A DNA stretch of 64,000 nucleotides from positions 62,001-126,000 of the forward strand of contig NZ_JAAGRN010000009.1 of NCBI RefSeq assembly GCF_010499255.1. The letters run 5' to 3'. A program made the translations under genes and the position numbers. The DNA comes from Sheuella amnicola (lineage in GTDB: Bacteria; Pseudomonadota; Gammaproteobacteria; Burkholderiales; Burkholderiaceae_B). Under the pieces are notes generated by a model. That model saw only the letters and a program-made list of their open reading frames with translations, made no database searches and was not told the DNA's origin. Shown here one piece after another: positions 47,329-60,423 of the stretch. Position 1 is the first letter of the stretch, and each line of letters starts with the position of its first letter.

Positions 47329-49239
47329 TCAAAGAAATTCTTTAATACGCTTGCCAATCCTGCGACGATCGCCAAATCGCTGCGTCACTCCAAGCTGATC
47401 AAAGAACTCTAGGTAATGAATTGCAAGCCCACGTCCAGTTCCGATGGCGTCCCTGAATTGCGCTGCATTGAAAAAACCGCCCGGCTGTTTGTTTGCCACA
47501 TCAACCAAAACTGCCGCGAGCCTTGTAAGCGTCTCTCTTAAGCAAAATCGATCAGGAGTAACTCGCCTGATGTCACCCGTTCTACTTTTACGATGAAGAA
47601 AGTCGCGTAATGGCTGTTCTTTGACCTTCAATTTTTCTGCCAGCACACCAACTAACGGAGTATTCACGCCGAATGAAAGCAATGTTTCGTGAACCAGCTT
47701 CCAAAGCATTTCGTCTTCCGGGTTTGCGGATACATCATGATCGCGAAGACTGACGACATCATTGGATAGCACCAACAACTTTCGGTTAGCCAAGTCCCGT
47801 ATCAACGCCTGAAATGCTTCAAACGGAATGCGTTTTGTAATCATTGATCTTAAAGCAGACACTCCGATACCCGGGTCTTGAGGGTAGAGTGTGTGATGCT
47901 TGCGGACTTTTTCCAGCACACTCACTTTCAAAGCATCCGATGCGGCTCGCGAGATTCCAATCGGCATGGCTTTACCCAAGACAATCGCATCCGCATCACG
48001 AATCATGCTTCCGACATTTTGTTGCAACAGATTCATTGCCCGGCAAAACGAATGTATATCCACGCCTGCTTCACTCAGATCAAGCAATCCGGAAAGAATT
48101 TTCTCAGGCGTTGATCTTTCGTAGACTTGCATCTCAGCCTCTCTGACGCCCGCCCCGCGTCTTTGTTTGAGCGCAAAGGGATTCATGACTATGCCACCAC
48201 CGATCGTACGAGTTGCCGATTGATCTCGAATAATGAATCGATCGCCATGCAATGCTGCTATTGGCTTATCGGTAATCAGCTGGACGTAGCGAGTCTGACC
48301 GGGTTCAATCTTGCCTTCGCCAGACACGACAACCCGCGCCAACACATCCGTCGTCCCCAAATGAAGATGAACACAAGACCAGTGCAACAATGAACGATCC
48401 TCTGATTCAATCACTTTAAGCCTGACATCCAAACGATTAGTCGGCGCATGCGTATTTGAATCCTGTATCCAGTTACCACGACCAGCTTCAGACACGTTCA
48501 CGCCAACCAGATTCAAAGCACATCGTTGACCGGAATAGGCAAATTCAGTCGCCACACCATGAACCTGTATGCCTCTGACCCTGACTTGGATGCCTTCGGG
48601 CGATATCATCAACTGATCATCCACACTGACTTTTCCGCTATGAACCGTACCCGTTACAACAGTTCCACTCCCAGCTATGGTAAATGCCCGATCGATGGGC
48701 ATACGAAATCCCTGAGAAATATCGTCTACGGAAGAAGATCGACCGGATAAATCAAACAGCCAATCTCGCACAGTCGAAATGCCATCGCCGGTTATGCAAT
48801 TCACCCTGAAGACAGGAGCTCCAGCGATAGATGTGGAGTGGATCATCGCAGTGATATCAGCTGATACACCCTCGACCCTGGCGGCATCCACTTTATCCAC
48901 TTTGGTAATCACGATTGCTGCACGTTCGACATTGAGCAAGTCCAGAATATGAAGATGCTCTAGGGTTTGGGGCATCAAACCATCATCGGCTGCGACGATC
49001 AATAGCGCGGCATTGATCCCGGTAACACCCGCAAGCATGTTACGCACAAATCTTTCATGTCCGGGGACATCGATAAAACTCACGCAACTATTCTGGCCAA
49101 GTTCGGCATGAGCAAAACCAAGATCAATCGTCATGCCGCGTGCGCGCTCCTCGGGCAGGCGATCCGTTTCTATTCCCGTCAGCGCCTTGATGAGGCTTGT
49201 TTTACCGTGATCTATGTGTCCTGCAGTAGCTACGATCAT
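47329..49239 (-). CDS. selB: Selenocysteine-specific translation elongation factor SelB
   Basis: 636 residues. GTPase motifs: [16 protein letters not shown] (G1), [10 protein letters not shown] (G2 region), [13 protein letters not shown] (G3) and ITKVDKVD (G4). Domains II-III follow ([14 protein letters not shown]), then a C-terminal set of winged-helix domains that binds the SECIS hairpin. It delivers Sec-tRNA to UGA codons carrying a SECIS element. No selA, selD or selC gene is seen in the window. A selenoprotein gene lies 2.2 kb away at 51450. Preceded on the same strand by a TrxR-like flavoprotein gene (53-bp gap). Confidence 0.95.
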
Positions 49240-49292: not shown

Positions 49293-50204
49293 TTAGGCGG
49301 ATCTAGACTTTACATGCTTGGCCACCTGCCGAGCCTCTAGAACGGCGTCTTTCAGCCAACCACCGAATCCGGATCTAACCTGACCAATCGCCCAGAGACC
49401 GGAAATAGATGTTTCAAGTTCCGGACCGACTTTCAAATAGCCTGAAACATCACGCTCAACTTCTTTAGGGGCGATCGCACCGTTGGGTTCGAGCCCCGGC
49501 AGCGCGAACAAACCGGTTGCCTTCAATTGTGCGGATTCGCCTTGATCGTTTCGAACCGTCACACCGGTCATGCCCGTTTCATCCCCTAAAACTTCGATGA
49601 TTGAATGATTCGGATGGAGAATGATTTTTGATTCCGACGTAACGCGCGAAATATAGTCGTCGCATGCCTTCAATCCAGTGCCTGGGTATACGATATGTAC
49701 AGCGGCACATTCCTGCGCAAGCAGCAATGCATCCTGCAAGGCCCAATCACCGTTTCCTGCAACCACCACCTCTGCACCGGTAAACATTGGCGCATCGCAA
49801 TCCGCGCAATGTGACACGCCTCGACCTTCAAGCTCGGCTTCACCAGGCACACCAAGTTTTTTCAACTTCGCTCCTGTGGCGATAACAACAAAACGAGCTG
49901 TTTGAGCCCCTGAGTCGGTATCCACTTCGAATCCGCCATCCACCCGACGAACGCAACGCACTTCAGCCTGAATACTTTTTACTCCAGCCCTTTTATTGCC
50001 CATTGCAAGCATACCGGCATAGTCCATGCCGGATAGGCCGTCGGCCTCTTCGAAATGTTCAAGCTCATTCACATTGACTACAAGGCCGCCGTAGAACTCG
50101 CTTTCGAATGTCGCAACGACAAGGCCAAGTTTAGCCGCCTCGGATGCGCAAGTCAGGCCTGCAAAACCTTCTCCGATCACGATCAAATCAAACGCGGGTG
50201 TCAT
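49293..50204 (-). CDS. Thioredoxin-reductase-like FAD/NAD(P) oxidoreductase
   Basis: 303 residues from ATG 50204 (GAAGGACAAAAG upstream); longer frames to 50258 are open. The FAD GxGxxG motif is DLIVIGEGFAGLTCASEAA; the redox-active CxxC is CADC in GVSHCADCDAPMFTG, as in thioredoxin reductase; VVVAGNGDWALQDALLLAQ is the NAD(P)H motif. It would reduce a dithiol partner with NADPH. Co-directional with selB and divergent from a lysR gene. It may supply electrons to the selenoprotein near 51.7 kb, but that is only an inference from position. Confidence 0.85.
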   Translation of the reverse strand: MTPAFDLIVIGEGFAGLTCASEAAKLGLVVATFESEFYGGLVVNVNELEHFEEADGLSGMDYAGMLAMGNKRAGVKSIQAEVRCVRRVDGGFEVDTDSGAQTARFVVIATGAKLKKLGVPGEAELEGRGVSHCADCDAPMFTGAEVVVAGNGDWALQDALLLAQECAAVHIVYPGTGLKACDDYISRVTSESKIILHPNHSIIEVLGDETGMTGVTVRNDQGESAQLKATGLFALPGLEPNGAIAPKEVERDVSGYLKVGPELETSISGLWAIGQVRSGFGGWLKDAVLEARQVAKHVKSRSA

Positions 50205-50388
50205 CTTTTGTCCTTCTTCCATATCAACTTCAATCTTGCGACAGAGTAAATCTGGCAACGATTATTTACAATATTAATCTTTTACTATTTTTAATTTCAT
50301 TAATTGCATAAATACATTTAAACTGTTTTAACCGCTGCCAGTGATTTCTCTTACTTAACGCTTTTGTGCCACCAGGACCGCTTTCAAG

Positions 50389-51390
50389 ATGAAGAAAAAA
50401 TCCGCCCCCTCTCTACTCCAATCTGGAACTATTCCGGACTTGAGTTCCCGCGAACTTCAAGCAGTCTGCACTATTGCCGAATACAACAGCTTCATGGCAG
50501 CGGCATTAACCTTAAGCATCTCTCAACCGGCCCTCACCCGCATGGTGCAGCGTGTCGAAAGCGCGCTAGGGCTAGAATTATTTCGTCGATCCACAAGAAG
50601 AATCGAAACAACACCCGCAGGACAGGAATTTATCGACCTGGCGAACAGAATTCTCTCCGACCTGCGGATTTCATATGAAAACATGCGTGACATTTCCGAT
50701 GAACAACGCGGTCGTGTCATCATTTCCTCAGTGATGTCTGCAGCATATTCCCAATTGCCTCGACTAGTGGCAAGTTATCTTCTTAGTCGACCCAAAATTG
50801 AAATCCAGCTACGTGAAGGCGTGCACGGCACTGTCATGGAAGATGTACGCAGTGGCCTGGCAGATCTCGGCATCACATACCTGGACGAAGTTCCCAGAGA
50901 GTTCGCGACGATAGAACTGAGCACTGAGGGTTTTCACGTCGTCATGCCCAAGCAGCACCGCTTGGCCTGCCTGGATGAAATCCGAATCGAGGATATTGCG
51001 GATTGCACCCTCGTGTCGCTACCCAAGGAAGCCCACGCCCGAAAATTACTGGACGGTGCCGCATCTTTGGCAGGCTTCAGCCTTCACCATGCAATCACGG
51101 TGCATCAATTCGCCACAGTCATGCAATGCGTTCGGGCTGGGGTCGGCGTTTCGGTCGTACCAAGCGGAGCCGTGCCGGTGGCAGTCAGTGCGGGACTCAT
51201 CTCTCGCCCCCTAGTCAAGCCGCACTTCGAACGATCAATGGGGATTTTGACCTTAAAAGATCGTGCGCTTACGCCCAGCGCAAAAGGGTTTCTGACTCAT
51301 CTTCAATCAGATTGGCGAATCATTGAAGTCGGTTCAATGAAAGCGCCACTTAAACAGACAGGCAAAAAGCAGGTGAAACACTCAAACTGA
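50389..51390 (+). CDS. LysR-family regulator
   Basis: 333 residues. Winged helix LSSRELQAVCTIAEYNSFMAAALTLSISQPALTRMVQRVESALG after a basic leader, then a LysR effector domain (HVVMPKQHRLACLDEIRIEDI). Divergent from the TrxR-like gene and convergent with the selenoprotein gene. Of the regulators in the selenium region it is the only one, so it may control the selenoprotein operon. Confidence 0.9.
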   Translation: MKKKSAPSLLQSGTIPDLSSRELQAVCTIAEYNSFMAAALTLSISQPALTRMVQRVESALGLELFRRSTRRIETTPAGQEFIDLANRILSDLRISYENMRDISDEQRGRVIISSVMSAAYSQLPRLVASYLLSRPKIEIQLREGVHGTVMEDVRSGLADLGITYLDEVPREFATIELSTEGFHVVMPKQHRLACLDEIRIEDIADCTLVSLPKEAHARKLLDGAASLAGFSLHHAITVHQFATVMQCVRAGVGVSVVPSGAVPVAVSAGLISRPLVKPHFERSMGILTLKDRALTPSAKGFLTHLQSDWRIIEVGSMKAPLKQTGKKQVKHSN

Positions 51391-51399
51391 CTCATACAA

Positions 51400-51434
51400 A
51401 TCGACCACCGTCTTTTAAAGACAAGGTGGTCGAT
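51400..51434. terminator. Long hairpin between lysR and the selenoprotein gene
   Basis: ATCGACCACC / GGTGGTCGAT (10 bp) encloses an inner GTCTTT-T-AAAGAC stem, in all a long, nearly perfect hairpin between two convergent genes. There is no T tract on either side, so it is probably a bidirectional terminator or mRNA end protector. Confidence 0.6.
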
Positions 51435-51449
51435 AATGCCTGACAATCC

Positions 51450-51980
51450 TTACGCCTGGCGCTCAGTCAACAAAGACACAATACGCGCAGCCGCAACTAC
51501 TGCCTTCTCGCGAAGTATTTCATCGCTATTATTTGCGATGGGATGACCAATCACAGCAAAAGGATACCCTGGCAAGCCATTAAGCTCTCCCATGACCTCG
51601 GCGCTGCGCACAAATCGATCGGTCATAATGCCGACGGCGGGAATCCCCAGACGCTCGGCTTCAATGGCGTCATGCAGACTGCACGACGAACAAGACCCTC
51701 AGTCGCCGGTTGCAGCCAAAATCGCGTCCGCGCCTGAGATACTCGCAAGCATTTCCGGCGGAACGGGTTTGGTTGCATCAGGCTTGCGCACACGCAAAAA
51801 CTCACGCGCCCCGTGCTCTTTTTTCAAAATCTCGGCGATATAGTCGAACAACTTCGATGTACCGATCTTTGCGTTATCAATCATGCCGATGACGGCACCT
51901 TCCAGCGACTTCAGGGGAGGAGCAAGGCGCAACGCCTCCCCCTCAGCCGATAATCGCGGGTCCAGGACTCTAATAGTCAT
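51450..51980 (-). CDS. UGSC-family selenoprotein (Sec94 encoded by in-frame TGA)
   Basis: 176 residues when the TGA at 51699-51701 is read as selenocysteine (Sec94). Start ATG 51980 has AAAGGAG 6 nt upstream; the TAA stop is at 51450-51452. Without read-through the frame would end as a 93-residue fragment just after AILAATGD. The frame continues for 82 sense codons after the TGA, beginning U-GSCSSC, then SLHDAIEAERLGIPAVGIMTD and GLPGYPFAVIGHPI. The U-G-S-C-x-x-C centre defines the UGSC (seleno)protein family and resembles the UGTCTRC redox centre of glycine reductase GrdB, with the same downstream GIP-V and HP pattern. A SECIS-like hairpin follows the TGA and selB is 2.2 kb away. Cotranscribed with the 350-residue partner gene 19 bp upstream. 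A redox or reductive-cleavage role is inferred; the substrate is unknown. Confidence 0.88.
51669..51687 (-). promoter_or_regulatory. Bacterial SECIS element (hairpin in the coding region)
   Basis: On the minus strand GUCGUGC pairs with GCAUGAC (7 bp, one G-U pair) around the loop AGUCU. The loop GU lies 19 nt after the UGA, the same distance as in E. coli fdhF as I recall it, and the apical GCAGUCUGC closely resembles fdhF GCAGGUCUGC. This is the structure SelB recognises. Confidence 0.82.
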
Positions 51981-51999
51981 GCCTGCTCCTTTCACAACA

Positions 52000-56894: not shown

Positions 56895-57698
56895 TCAACG
56901 AGACATACCCCGGCGGGCTAAGTAAGACAAAGAATCCACAAACACAACGAGCAAAATCATCGCGATCAAAATCGTGCTGGTCTCTCGCATATGAAACAAG
57001 CCCATGTGATAGGCCAGCATCTGGCCAAGTCCTCCGCCTCCCACCACCCCCAGGATCGCGGCGGCACGAATGTTGTTCTCCCAGCGATAAAGCGAATACG
57101 ACATGAGCTGAGGCAAAACAATTGGAAATGTGGCGTACAAAAACACCCTAAATTCTGAAACCCCTTGCGCTCTTAATGCAGCCGCAGCGTCCTCTGGGGC
57201 ATTTTCAATCGCTTCAGCAAATAGCCTGCCCAGAACGCCCGTTGTGTGTAGAGCTAATGCCAGCGTCCCGGCAAACGGACCAAGTCCCGCTGAAATTAAC
57301 AACAAAGCTGCCCATACAAGCTCTGGAATTGAACGCAGGCCGTTAAGCAACAAGCGAGTTGGCAAGCGCCAAAGGGCACGATCGCCAGAATAAGTTTTGC
57401 TTGCGGGCAGAGCCAACAGCAAGCCAAAAAACATCGCAATCACGGTCCCCAATGCTGACATCGCCAAAGTCTCAAGGCTTGCCATTAAAAGCCGCCACAA
57501 AAATGCCGACTCCATATTCGGCGAAGAAAGCTCGCCGATAAACTTCCCCATCCGGACCGCACTATCCCAGGATAACAGCCTTGAAAGTTGTAAATCCAAA
57601 CTCCAAAAACTTAGCAATGTAAGAACGACTAAAGATGCGGTCACCCAACAGACTGAACTGTTCCATCGAAGTAAATGATCGGGCCGCTCGCTGTTCAC
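56895..57698 (-). CDS. PhnE-like ABC permease
   Basis: 267 residues from a GTG that overlaps the preceding permease stop (GTGA). About six hydrophobic segments, with LRSIPELVWAALLLISAGLGPFAGTLALALHTTGVLGRLFAEAIENAP and GVVGGGGLGQMLAYHMGLF, the PhnE loop. Fourth gene of the PhnD-type importer on the minus strand. Confidence 0.92.
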   Translation of the reverse strand: MNSERPDHLLRWNSSVCWVTASLVVLTLLSFWSLDLQLSRLLSWDSAVRMGKFIGELSSPNMESAFLWRLLMASLETLAMSALGTVIAMFFGLLLALPASKTYSGDRALWRLPTRLLLNGLRSIPELVWAALLLISAGLGPFAGTLALALHTTGVLGRLFAEAIENAPEDAAAALRAQGVSEFRVFLYATFPIVLPQLMSYSLYRWENNIRAAAILGVVGGGGLGQMLAYHMGLFHMRETSTILIAMILLVVFVDSLSYLARRGMSR

Positions 57699-58528
57699 TG
57701 AATCACCTTACGAAGCCGGGAACTTAACAAATCTGCCAAACCCACAAGCAGCATAAATACGATTAGCATGGTGGAAACTTCTGCGCCATTGAACATCTTC
57801 ATGGAGTTGTCCATCTGCTGGCCCAATCCACCTGCCCCAACGAATCCTAATACCGCGGAGGAACGTATCGCACACTCCCAGCGATACACCGTATAGCTCG
57901 TTAACTCCGTTGCATTTTGGGGCAGAAGGCCATAAAAAAAAGCTTGAATCCGACTACAACCGTTGCGCATAAGCGTATGTGTCGCATGGGACTCACCGCT
58001 TTCCAAAATTTCGCTGTAAACCTTTCCCAACATGCCGGCATAGGTTAAAGCAATCGCCAACACTCCAGCTGCTGGTCCAAGGCCCACCACGCGCACGAAT
58101 ACCAAAGCCCAAATCAGCTCCGGGATGCTACGAAGGATGATCATGGCCCATCGGATCAATTGCCTAATAACAAAAGGCAACACACCCATTCGTCCGCTCA
58201 GCAATGAGACTGAGAGCATGCTAGTGCCAGCAAGCGTCATTGGGATTGCCAGAACCAATGCGAGAAACATCCCTGCCGTTGCAATCGCTACAGTACGCCA
58301 AGCCTCCTTGGCCACCATCATCAGAAACTCAGGATCAAGCTTTGGAGGAAAAAAATCACCTAGAAACTTAGCGCTCACACGAAGATTATCGGGATCAAAA
58401 AATACCCAGGGTCTGAATTCTGTTGCAACAAGTGCCGGCAACATCAGCACCAAAGCAAAACTTGTCCAAAAGACTTTGCGTGACCAAGTCGGGTCGCGAA
58501 GCGATGGCGCGAAAATGACGGTCGACAT
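57695..58528 (-). CDS. PhnE-like ABC permease
   Basis: 277 residues from ATG 58528, 2 bp after the ATPase stop (a TTG at 58540 is also in frame). Six hydrophobic segments and ILRSIPELIWALVFVRVVGLGPAAGVLAIALTYAGMLGKVYSEILE plus LGFVGAGGLGQQMDNSMK. Two non-identical permeases suggest a heterodimeric channel. Confidence 0.92.
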   Translation of the reverse strand: MSTVIFAPSLRDPTWSRKVFWTSFALVLMLPALVATEFRPWVFFDPDNLRVSAKFLGDFFPPKLDPEFLMMVAKEAWRTVAIATAGMFLALVLAIPMTLAGTSMLSVSLLSGRMGVLPFVIRQLIRWAMIILRSIPELIWALVFVRVVGLGPAAGVLAIALTYAGMLGKVYSEILESGESHATHTLMRNGCSRIQAFFYGLLPQNATELTSYTVYRWECAIRSSAVLGFVGAGGLGQQMDNSMKMFNGAEVSTMLIVFMLLVGLADLLSSRLRKVIQ

Positions 58529-58530
58529 GG

Positions 58531-59364
58531 CTAACGGCAATGTATGCGATTCGAGGAATCAGGTATCGGCGACAAGTCAATCACCGGCGCTGCAACACCC
58601 GCAAGCTCATGCTCAAACTGATGATATAGATCGGCAAGTCGCTCTTTGCTCACCTCGGCAGAAGGAAGATCAAACACCAGCCTTCCTTCGCGCAGGCCCA
58701 ACACCCGTGGGAAACGAGAAATTGCCACATCCACCTGATGCAGGGTTGTGACTAGAGTCACTCCTCGCTTTTGCGCCTGTGTGATCAAGGTGTCAATTGC
58801 CTGTCGTGACCGCTTTGGATCCAAAGCCGACAACGGCTCATCGACGAGCCAAAGCGAAGAGGGAGACATCAACGCACGACCCAAACCTACTCGCTGGCGT
58901 TCGCCCCCGGAGAGTCGATCCACGCGATCCCAAAGTTTTTCTGCAAAGTCAAACGCACTCAAAGCTTCCAAGACTTGGTCAACATTGCGTGGATAAATCA
59001 ACTGGGAAATGCTTTGAAATAATGACAGCCTTGGTAGCTGCCCGGCAAGCAATGCAGTGATGACGCGTTGTCGCGGCGGCAAGGGAGGCGTTTGGGGCGC
59101 ATAAAACAACTTGCCGCGAAGTTTTTGTAATTCGCGAGTGGATAGACCCCATGGGTCCGTCTCATTGAGTAAAAACTTGCCCGAAGTTGGCTTTAAAGCG
59201 CATGCCATCAAGGCAAGCAACGTGGTTTTGCCAGCGCCCGAGGGGCCGATCACGGCAACATGCTCGCCTGCTGAAAGTCGAAGGTTCAGTTCGCGAATGG
59301 CGCTCGGCACCCCGGGCTTTGCCCTAGGATGCCGACCCTCTACAGATTCAAGTCGGATCTTCAA
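58531..59364 (-). CDS. PhnC-like ABC transporter ATP-binding protein
   Basis: 277 residues from a TTG start just after the binding-protein stop, hence translationally coupled. Walker A VIGPSGAGKTTLLALM, signature RLSGGERQRVGLGRALM, Walker B LWLVDEPLSALDP and the switch in LVTTLHQVDVA. Member of the PhnC class that energises uptake of phosphonate-like oxyanions. The cluster is PhnD-PhnC-PhnE-PhnE. Confidence 0.92.
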   Translation of the reverse strand: MKIRLESVEGRHPRAKPGVPSAIRELNLRLSAGEHVAVIGPSGAGKTTLLALMACALKPTSGKFLLNETDPWGLSTRELQKLRGKLFYAPQTPPLPPRQRVITALLAGQLPRLSLFQSISQLIYPRNVDQVLEALSAFDFAEKLWDRVDRLSGGERQRVGLGRALMSPSSLWLVDEPLSALDPKRSRQAIDTLITQAQKRGVTLVTTLHQVDVAISRFPRVLGLREGRLVFDLPSAEVSKERLADLYHQFEHELAGVAAPVIDLSPIPDSSNRIHCR

Positions 59365-59369
59365 AACAA

Positions 59370-60230
59370 TTACTTGATAATGCCTGCGCTTCGCCCCGCG
59401 CGCTCCAAACTAGCGTAATTCTCAACCTTGGTGGGAATGTATTTTGTTGCGCGGTTCAACGTGAGAATCTCCTTGCCCTCTGGTGTGTTCATATCCAACG
59501 CAAACAAAGCAGCGGCGATCTTGTCACGCAAGGCCTGTGGCATATCGGCATGAACCGACCAGTTGTAATTGAAATAAGGCGGCGTGGTATAAAAAACATC
59601 AACCACATTCGTGTCGACTTTTTTATCATTCACAAACTTTTGCCAAACAGTCATGTCCAGGGCTGCAGCATCGACCCGACCGCTTACAACCGAGGCGATC
59701 GTTGCATCGTGCGCGCCCGAGTAAGCAGTGAGCTTGAAGTCACGCTCAGGCTCTATGCCAGCTTCAAGCAGATAAGTTCTTGGCATTAAATGCCCGGATG
59801 TGCTTGACTGTGAGCCAAAGCTCACTTGCTTGCCTTTGAGATCGGTAAGCTTTGTAATACCCGAGTTCTTTTTGGTGATGAAAACCGAACGAAACTTTGT
59901 GTCCTCTTCGCGCTGGGCGATCGGAATGACTTTGCCACCCGAGCGAATATTGGCCTGAACGAAGGTCACACCTCCAAACCAAACAAGATCCACTTGTTTA
60001 TTAACCAAAGCTTCAACGGCTGCAGGATAATCATTGACTGGCATGTACTCGACTTTAAGGCCTAATGACTTTTCCAGATAACGAACAAAAGGTCCGTATT
60101 TTCGAACCTGTTCCGTCGCTGCCTCCTCTGGAATGGCGGTCACCCGCAGTACCTGCTGAGCACTTGCCGTGCAAATAACACCAAATGTTGCAATGGCAAC
60201 AATAGCCTTCATCAAATGACGACGAATCAT
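59370..60230 (-). CDS. PhnD-type substrate-binding protein (resembles putative selenate-binding proteins)
   Basis: 286 residues from ATG 60230; longer frames to 60320 lack support. Signal peptide ends near TASAQ. Mature part: LRVTAIPEEAATEQVRKYGP, EALVNKQVDLVWFGGVTFVQA, QSSTSGHLMPRTYLLEAGIEPE, YSGAHDATIASVVSGRVDAA. The PhnD fold is certain. The wording VPVNDYPAAVEALV-like, TFVQA and AYSGAHDA resembles the family I remember as putative selenate ABC transporter periplasmic proteins. In a window with selB and a selenoprotein, selenium oxyanion uptake is plausible; phosphonate or phosphite remains possible. Confidence 0.85.
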   Translation of the reverse strand: MIRRHLMKAIVAIATFGVICTASAQQVLRVTAIPEEAATEQVRKYGPFVRYLEKSLGLKVEYMPVNDYPAAVEALVNKQVDLVWFGGVTFVQANIRSGGKVIPIAQREEDTKFRSVFITKKNSGITKLTDLKGKQVSFGSQSSTSGHLMPRTYLLEAGIEPERDFKLTAYSGAHDATIASVVSGRVDAAALDMTVWQKFVNDKKVDTNVVDVFYTTPPYFNYNWSVHADMPQALRDKIAAALFALDMNTPEGKEILTLNRATKYIPTKVENYASLERAGRSAGIIK

Positions 60231-60423
60231 GATGAGTTCAATCCTGTATGTGGAAATGAGGCCCGCACGGGGCACTGAAGACAAGCAGCGCGAGAACTGC
60301 CAGACCCATGAACATAACACAATTCAAGCACTCTGGACTAAATCGATCTTTGCAAATCAAGTAGGCGTAACTTGCTGACAATTAACACATGTCATTTAGC
60401 CAAATTCAAGGCTTGCAAAGAAA

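Follow-up and report, generated by a model that had tools for sequence, protein, structure and literature searches.

A UGSC-family selenoprotein gene of Sheuella amnicola with a constant partner gene, a hairpin lacking U17 and a second, possibly dedicated SelB

UGSC was described in a 2008 marine survey as a major selenoprotein family of the GOS aquatic metagenomes (PMC2398784), and a 2026 review names it among the selenoproteins with largely uncharacterised functions (PMC13188914). Our searches of open-licence PubMed Central found no function for UGSC and no description of a SelB tied either to this family or to a hairpin without U17. According to the bacterial SECIS model, such an element has an apical loop of 3-9 nt with a G in its first two positions, located 16-37 nt from the UGA (PMC13188914), and mutation of U17 or G23 is stated in a review to abolish UGA reading (PMC8659212). 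For the selA-selB-selC operon, fdhA is given as the only selenoprotein gene in the alpha- and beta-proteobacterial genomes of PMC1794560. Additional components have been described in two systems: selB* beside a selC* tRNA-Cys gene in delta-proteobacteria, and tRNA-Sec in two complete Sec operons of Photobacterium profundum 3TCK (PMC7609411 and PMC5330540, for both).

The DNA analyzed here (the window) is a stretch of 64,000 nucleotides from the Sheuella amnicola genome, the relevant features of which are collected in Table 1. The earlier note had proposed from the sequence alone that a minus-strand frame interrupted by TGA encodes a hidden UGSC selenoprotein, and translation of 51980-51450 (-) with TGA as U reproduced this frame: it runs from the ATG at 51980 through the TGA at 51699-51701 to a TAA, yielding 176 residues with U at position 94 and 82 sense codons thereafter. 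The read-through product scored above both curated cut-offs of the family (PF24696: 169.5 bits, cut-off 25; NF041046: 128.2 bits, cut-off 125), which agrees with the proposed membership, and its homologues carry Sec or Cys in the U/C-G-S-C motif. Searching the genome collection with the read-through protein returned 44 relatives, in 43 of which the aligned codon is TGA within the motif D-U-G-S-C-S-S-C; the sole Cys is found in L054, 28% identical to the window protein, and additional Cys-type UGSC homologues were found beyond this set. That the residues following the TGA are real protein is borne out by the family scores, by the identity of the 43 Sec relatives to the window protein (mean 62% before the TGA and 67% after it) and by pN/pS values of 0.13-0.22 in the region 3' of the TGA (five pairs). 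As the earlier note had anticipated, ordinary annotation misreports such genes: of the Sec relatives on plasmids, one in Acidovorax is annotated as a truncated and one in Paracoccus as a split hypothetical protein. The truncated annotation of some relatives also fits a reading of the TGA as a genuine stop or as an error, with the downstream frame representing noise or a pseudogene remnant, which we nonetheless regard as next to impossible in view of the recurrence of the TGA in 43 of 44 relatives, the low pN/pS after it and the Sec machinery in the genome. Of the grounds for doubt named in the earlier note, homologues ending at residue 93 are contradicted by the 43 of 44 that continue beyond it through a TGA, a base error would not be expected to recur at the same codon in 43 relatives, and selA, selC and selD are all present in the genome. 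The sequence firmly supports 51980-51450 (-) as the gene of a genuine UGSC-family selenoprotein, as the earlier note had stated, and the protein itself shows no departure from its known family; the partner gene, the second SelB and the type of hairpin are additions to that observation. Three loci (L028:3731-5368, L031:3540-5174 and L046:3684-5318) contain, in tandem to the main pair, a second UGSC gene of the C-U-G-S-C-T-P type, also with TGA, and its own partner homologue. The metagenome-assembled contigs of L018, L023, L028, L030 and L034 are titled Bordetella parapertussis, a label that looks doubtful.

Table 1. Positions in the window of the UGSC gene, its elements and its neighbors
Feature	Position	Strand	Remarks
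Second SelB (UGSC type)	47329..49239	-	C-terminal winged helix reads RGLAIH where the fdh type has RK..(I/V)Q
Thioredoxin-reductase-like flavoprotein with C-A-D-C	49293..50258	-	third-best of the genome's TrxR matches
LysR-family regulator	50389..51390	+	possible regulator of the locus (putative)
UGSC-family selenoprotein gene (predicted)	51450..51980	-	176 residues, Sec94 in G-D-U-G-S-C-S-S-C
SECIS-type hairpin	51668..51688	-	stem of 8-9 bp; spans nucleotides 14-34 (U of UGA = 1), G23-U24 in the loop, paired C17 instead of unpaired U17
In-frame TGA read as selenocysteine (predicted), residue 94	51699..51701	-	TGA in 43/44 relatives, Cys in 1
Likely ribosome-binding site (AAGGAG) of the UGSC gene	51986..51991	-	just 5' of ATG 51980, by eye
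Conserved partner protein, 350 aa	52000..53052	-	directly upstream of UGSC; Cys84, Asp33, Arg151, Arg154, Glu185 and Glu187 invariant in alignment A2

The hairpin that follows the UGA conforms to the bacterial SECIS model, with a loop of 3 to 5 nt that contains G23-U24 and lies 19 nt after the UGA. The synonymous-conservation ratio, calculated in blocks of 8 codons with the codon usage outside codons 94-112 as expectation, has a mean of 1.56 in the block of codons 97-104 vs 0.82-1.17 in the other 21 blocks, and the codons of Ser99 (TCG) and Ser101 (AGT) are fixed in 44/44. Among 50 Sec genes the best hairpin has an energy of -12.8 +/- 1.4 kcal/mol, compared with -8.3 +/- 2.4 kcal/mol among 20 Cys homologues, with overlapping ranges (weakest Sec -8.8, strongest Cys -12.9 kcal/mol). 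The fold is also retained in the Sec genes of Acidovorax and Paracoccus, where the stem differs but the loop position does not. Base-pair covariation within the main UGSC hairpin is near nil (equaled by 147/500 shuffles), and the 71-nt fold is no better than that of shuffled sequences (z -0.22). Overall, the sequences firmly support a hairpin after UGA94 that is under synonymous constraint.

The 350-aa protein encoded directly upstream matched no Pfam or NCBIfam family, and searches with 36 of its members against family profiles gave scattered weak matches only, with no Grd or Prd family among them; for its predicted model (pLDDT 88.1) no trustworthy fold match was found. The analysis of gene neighborhood revealed a homologue of this protein on the same strand and at most 250 nt from UGSC for 62 of 69 UGSC genes (40/47 in the 44 genome-contig loci, 12/12 on plasmids and 10/10 in the Cys loci of the family). 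In four of the seven exceptions (L013, L049, L050, L052) the homologue is located farther away, in two (L032, L051) the UGSC gene lies near the end of a contig, and in the last one (L055) no partner homologue was found within 7 kb on either side. In Variovorax boronicumulans UGSC and the partner form a single annotated protein of 545 aa, and the GOS survey reported UGSC fused to a domain called 'Unknown_1' (PMC2398784). By gene order, the 350-aa protein is the constant partner of UGSC. In the haloarchaeal plasmids L062 and L064 partner homologues are found on both flanks of a Cys-type UGSC gene.

The earlier note had compared the Sec center of UGSC with that of GrdB, and this likeness proved to be real and recurrent but weak: the window protein scored 16.2 bits against TIGR01917 (glycine reductase selenoprotein B; cut-off 602.2), while in alignment A1 (34 members) matches at E up to 1 were obtained to TIGR01917 for 20 members, to NF040794 for 15 and to TIGR01918 for 10, with the Sec region aligned. 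The predicted model of UGSC (pLDDT 89.9) has an alternating alpha/beta architecture, which by the order of its elements looks Rossmann/flavodoxin-like, and the best 50 matches in each PDB search with this model include flavodoxin-, receiver- and PurE-like domains. A thioredoxin-like fold has been suggested for UGSC (PMC2398784), and together with the UxxC motif and the TrxR-like neighbor it speaks for an ordinary enzyme of the thioredoxin-fold type (thiol oxidoreductase or peroxidase), which would cleave no substrate and have no obligate partner. We find such an enzyme improbable: no thioredoxin family was matched by the UGSC protein in profile searches, the model is alpha/beta with no thioredoxin among the best 50 PDB matches per search (an absence that by itself does not exclude a thioredoxin-like fold), and the adjacency of the partner gene is at variance with an enzyme that acts alone.

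The true start of the TrxR-like gene may be an ATG 12 or 18 codons inside the listed ORF. Its product scored about 187.5-187.8 bits against TIGR01292, below the cut-off of 343.45, and the main TrxB of the genome (contig C3) scored 387.2 bits. The TrxR-like protein lacks the HRR motif of the main TrxB, so that its electron donor may be NADPH, NADH or ferredoxin. A TrxR-like gene occurs in 27 of the 49 regions read, where it often separates selB from selC; the 4 fdh-type regions among the 49 have none. On Variovorax and Arthrobacter plasmids, trxB alone or together with trxA is also found near the UGSC-partner pair. Neighbors of UGSC pairs include tripartite tricarboxylate transporter receptors. 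A near homologue of the LysR-family regulator was found only in L012 (70%). The convergent UGSC and LysR genes are separated by an inverted repeat (51401-51433) that by eye looks like a two-way terminator, and an ABC transporter set (two permeases, ATPase and binding protein; phosphonate/phosphite type by eye) is located at 56895-60320. In Arthrobacter and Natrinema a gene close to the UGSC pair (L063:2672-3460 and L057:5500-5967) is annotated as phosphosulfolactate synthase, which possibly hints at the substrate.

The selB gene that the earlier note had placed 2.2 kb from UGSC was located at 47329-49239; its product scored 397.9 bits against TIGR00475 (SelB; cut-off 242.25) and contains the SelB-wing_2 and wing_3 domains. 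The other SelB of the same genome (460.5 bits), 33% identical to the first, is encoded on contig C1 together with selA, tRNA-Sec and a formate dehydrogenase gene bearing one TGA, and the genome holds selA, selD and a single tRNA-Sec (anticodon TCA). In a family sample of 200 genomes SelB was found above the cut-off in 84, and two full-length SelBs, as read from the match listing, in three (G000, G184, G052), each of which combines Sec-FdhA with Sec-UGSC, yet has one full-length SelA. Sec-UGSC with TGA is present in seven genomes of this sample, i.e. these three and G194, G128, G027 and G047. The last three have a single SelB of the UGSC type and no FdhA at E up to 1e-200 (FdhA search of the family sample), while G194 has a piece of FdhA without the Sec site, a fragment of SelA and no tRNA-Sec among the matches listed. 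Among 40 further Sec-UGSC genomes a SelB match (E up to 1e-60) was obtained in 37, one in 35 and two in 2; G219, G220 and G222 have none at this threshold, which incompleteness may or may not explain. One of the two SelBs of G227 is fdh-linked and the other UGSC-linked, and both SelBs of G206 are UGSC-linked. UGSC clusters often carry their own selA-selB-trxR-selC, and several SelBs of Sec-UGSC genomes are encoded on contigs other than that of the UGSC gene. G052 has two tRNA-Sec genes (L163, L169), one per Sec cluster, identical at 69/96 positions.

The Sec-fdhA hairpins contain U17 and G23-U24 in all 32 cases read (27 + 5), including those of G000, G184, G052 and G227. The main UGSC hairpins, all 44 of which have a paired C17 (mean probability of being unpaired 0.002) with G23-U24, depart from the E. 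coli-type fdh SECIS with its unpaired U17, and with paralogues counted, 51 of the 54 distinct UGSC hairpins have C17. The base at position 17 is the middle one in the codon of residue +5 from Sec. FdhA has Val at this residue; in UGSC it is Ser or Pro in most cases, and Ser throughout the 44 main hairpins. Since no Ser or Pro codon has U at that base, these residues put U17 out of reach. The U17 of fdhA is likewise also fixed by the Val codon, as two Cys-type fdhA genes have T17. On the side of SelB, a tree (calculated by a quick method, with a long-branch warning) separates by one branch (SH-aLRT 97) 13 fdh-type rows, 12 of them encoded on one contig with a TGA-bearing FdhA at a distance of at most 8 kb, from 45 rows of Sec-UGSC genomes, and a careful 26-row tree gave the same split (100/100). 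The motif RK..(I/V)Q in the last winged helix is found in 13/13 fdh-type SelBs vs 1 of the 43 others readable at this site; the second SelB of the window lacks it and is placed on the opposite side of the branch from the fdh type. PDB chain 2pjp, which we take to be the E. coli SelB domain bound to SECIS RNA, reads RKLAIQ at the signature site. G206 has two UGSC-type Sec clusters, L206 with a C17 hairpin and a RTRVIQ SelB, and L214 with a RKLAIQ SelB, the lone exception above, adjoining the only UGSC gene among the 54 with an unpaired U17 (a single event, noticed post hoc). The SelB of G047 reads NRKL and thus retains the Lys despite a C17 hairpin.

A SelB dedicated to this type of hairpin would be the best account of two selB genes beside one selA. 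In its strict form, this reading holds that one bacterium maintains two mutually exclusive Sec-insertion systems, with the fdh SelB requiring an unpaired U17, the second SelB family reading the U17-less UGSC hairpins, and SelA and selenophosphate common to both, a proposition to which the sequences lend about an even chance. Many predicted bacterial SECIS elements are unlike that of E. coli (PMC13188914), and therefore the missing U17 need not require a second SelB; moreover, the SelB groups also differ by ancestry, and therefore the differences in the motif may be due to drift. Co-transfer, like drift, is a possible alternative: the second SelB might have arrived with the UGSC cassette and been kept by chance or for dosage, with both SelBs reading both hairpins. 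The frequent selA-selB-trxR-selC sets of UGSC clusters, by which co-transfer explains co-location, and the mere five two-SelB genomes seen (G000, G184, G052, G206, G227) are in line with this scenario, which we nevertheless consider rather unlikely. It has to assume that in G000, G184 and G052 the second selA was lost or never arrived while two SelBs remain; it leaves unaccounted for that two full-length SelBs (by the match listing) occur in none of the remaining 81 genomes with SelB in the family sample and that the SelB signature varies together with hairpin position 17; and in G206 the UGSC gene with unpaired U17 adjoins a SelB with the signature of 2pjp.

With a dedicated SelB as the preferred reading, we propose that UGA94 would be read as selenocysteine by means of the hairpin with G23-U24 in the apical loop and no unpaired U17, most likely by the adjoining SelB (47329-49239) and not by the fdh-linked SelB on another contig, and that the two systems would have in common SelA, selenophosphate and, in this genome, the one tRNA-Sec. 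UGSC and its 350-aa partner would form a two-subunit enzyme with a redox center composed of Sec94 and Cys97/Cys100, which the TrxR-like flavoprotein may regenerate; the links to both proteins are suggested by gene neighborhood. By analogy with GrdB/PrdB, the substrate would most likely be a small organic acid that undergoes a reductive change; this chemistry is inferred from the weak GrdB/PrdB similarity, the TrxR link and neighbors such as the tripartite tricarboxylate transporter receptors. Taken as a whole (selenoprotein, dedicated SelB, two-subunit enzyme, redox center and reductive chemistry), we regard this explanation as reasonably probable. The constant partner and the TrxR-like gene in the Sec cluster make the UGSC enzyme testable. 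If the proposal is true, a natural SelB/hairpin pair unlike that of E. coli would illustrate recoding that adapts to the protein it serves, and selenoprotein engineering could gain a SelB without a forced U at position 17.

Among known systems, the window protein belongs with the UGSC family (NF041046, PF24696), in which it shares scores over both cut-offs, the U-G-S-C center and the occurrence of Sec and Cys members; the partner, the SelB context and the alpha/beta model are new relative to what is known of this family. With GrdB and PrdB of the glycine, sarcosine and D-proline reductases it has in common the U-x-x-C-x-x-C center and weak profile matches in the Sec region, but it scores far below their cut-offs and its partner matches no Grd or Prd family; the TrxR-like neighbor recalls the thioredoxin-reductase genes beside grd operons. 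The pathway and gene set are those of the beta-proteobacterial selA-selB-selC + fdhA module, from which the UGSC clusters differ by the additional TrxR-like gene, a SelB that lacks RK..Q and a hairpin that lacks U17. The occurrence in one genome of a second selB, or of two operons with tRNA-Sec, is a feature shared with the selB*/selC* system and with P. profundum 3TCK; in those cases, however, the extra set accompanies an odd tRNA or an entire operon, whereas in the present genome it accompanies a single selenoprotein family and a single type of hairpin, with SelA in common.
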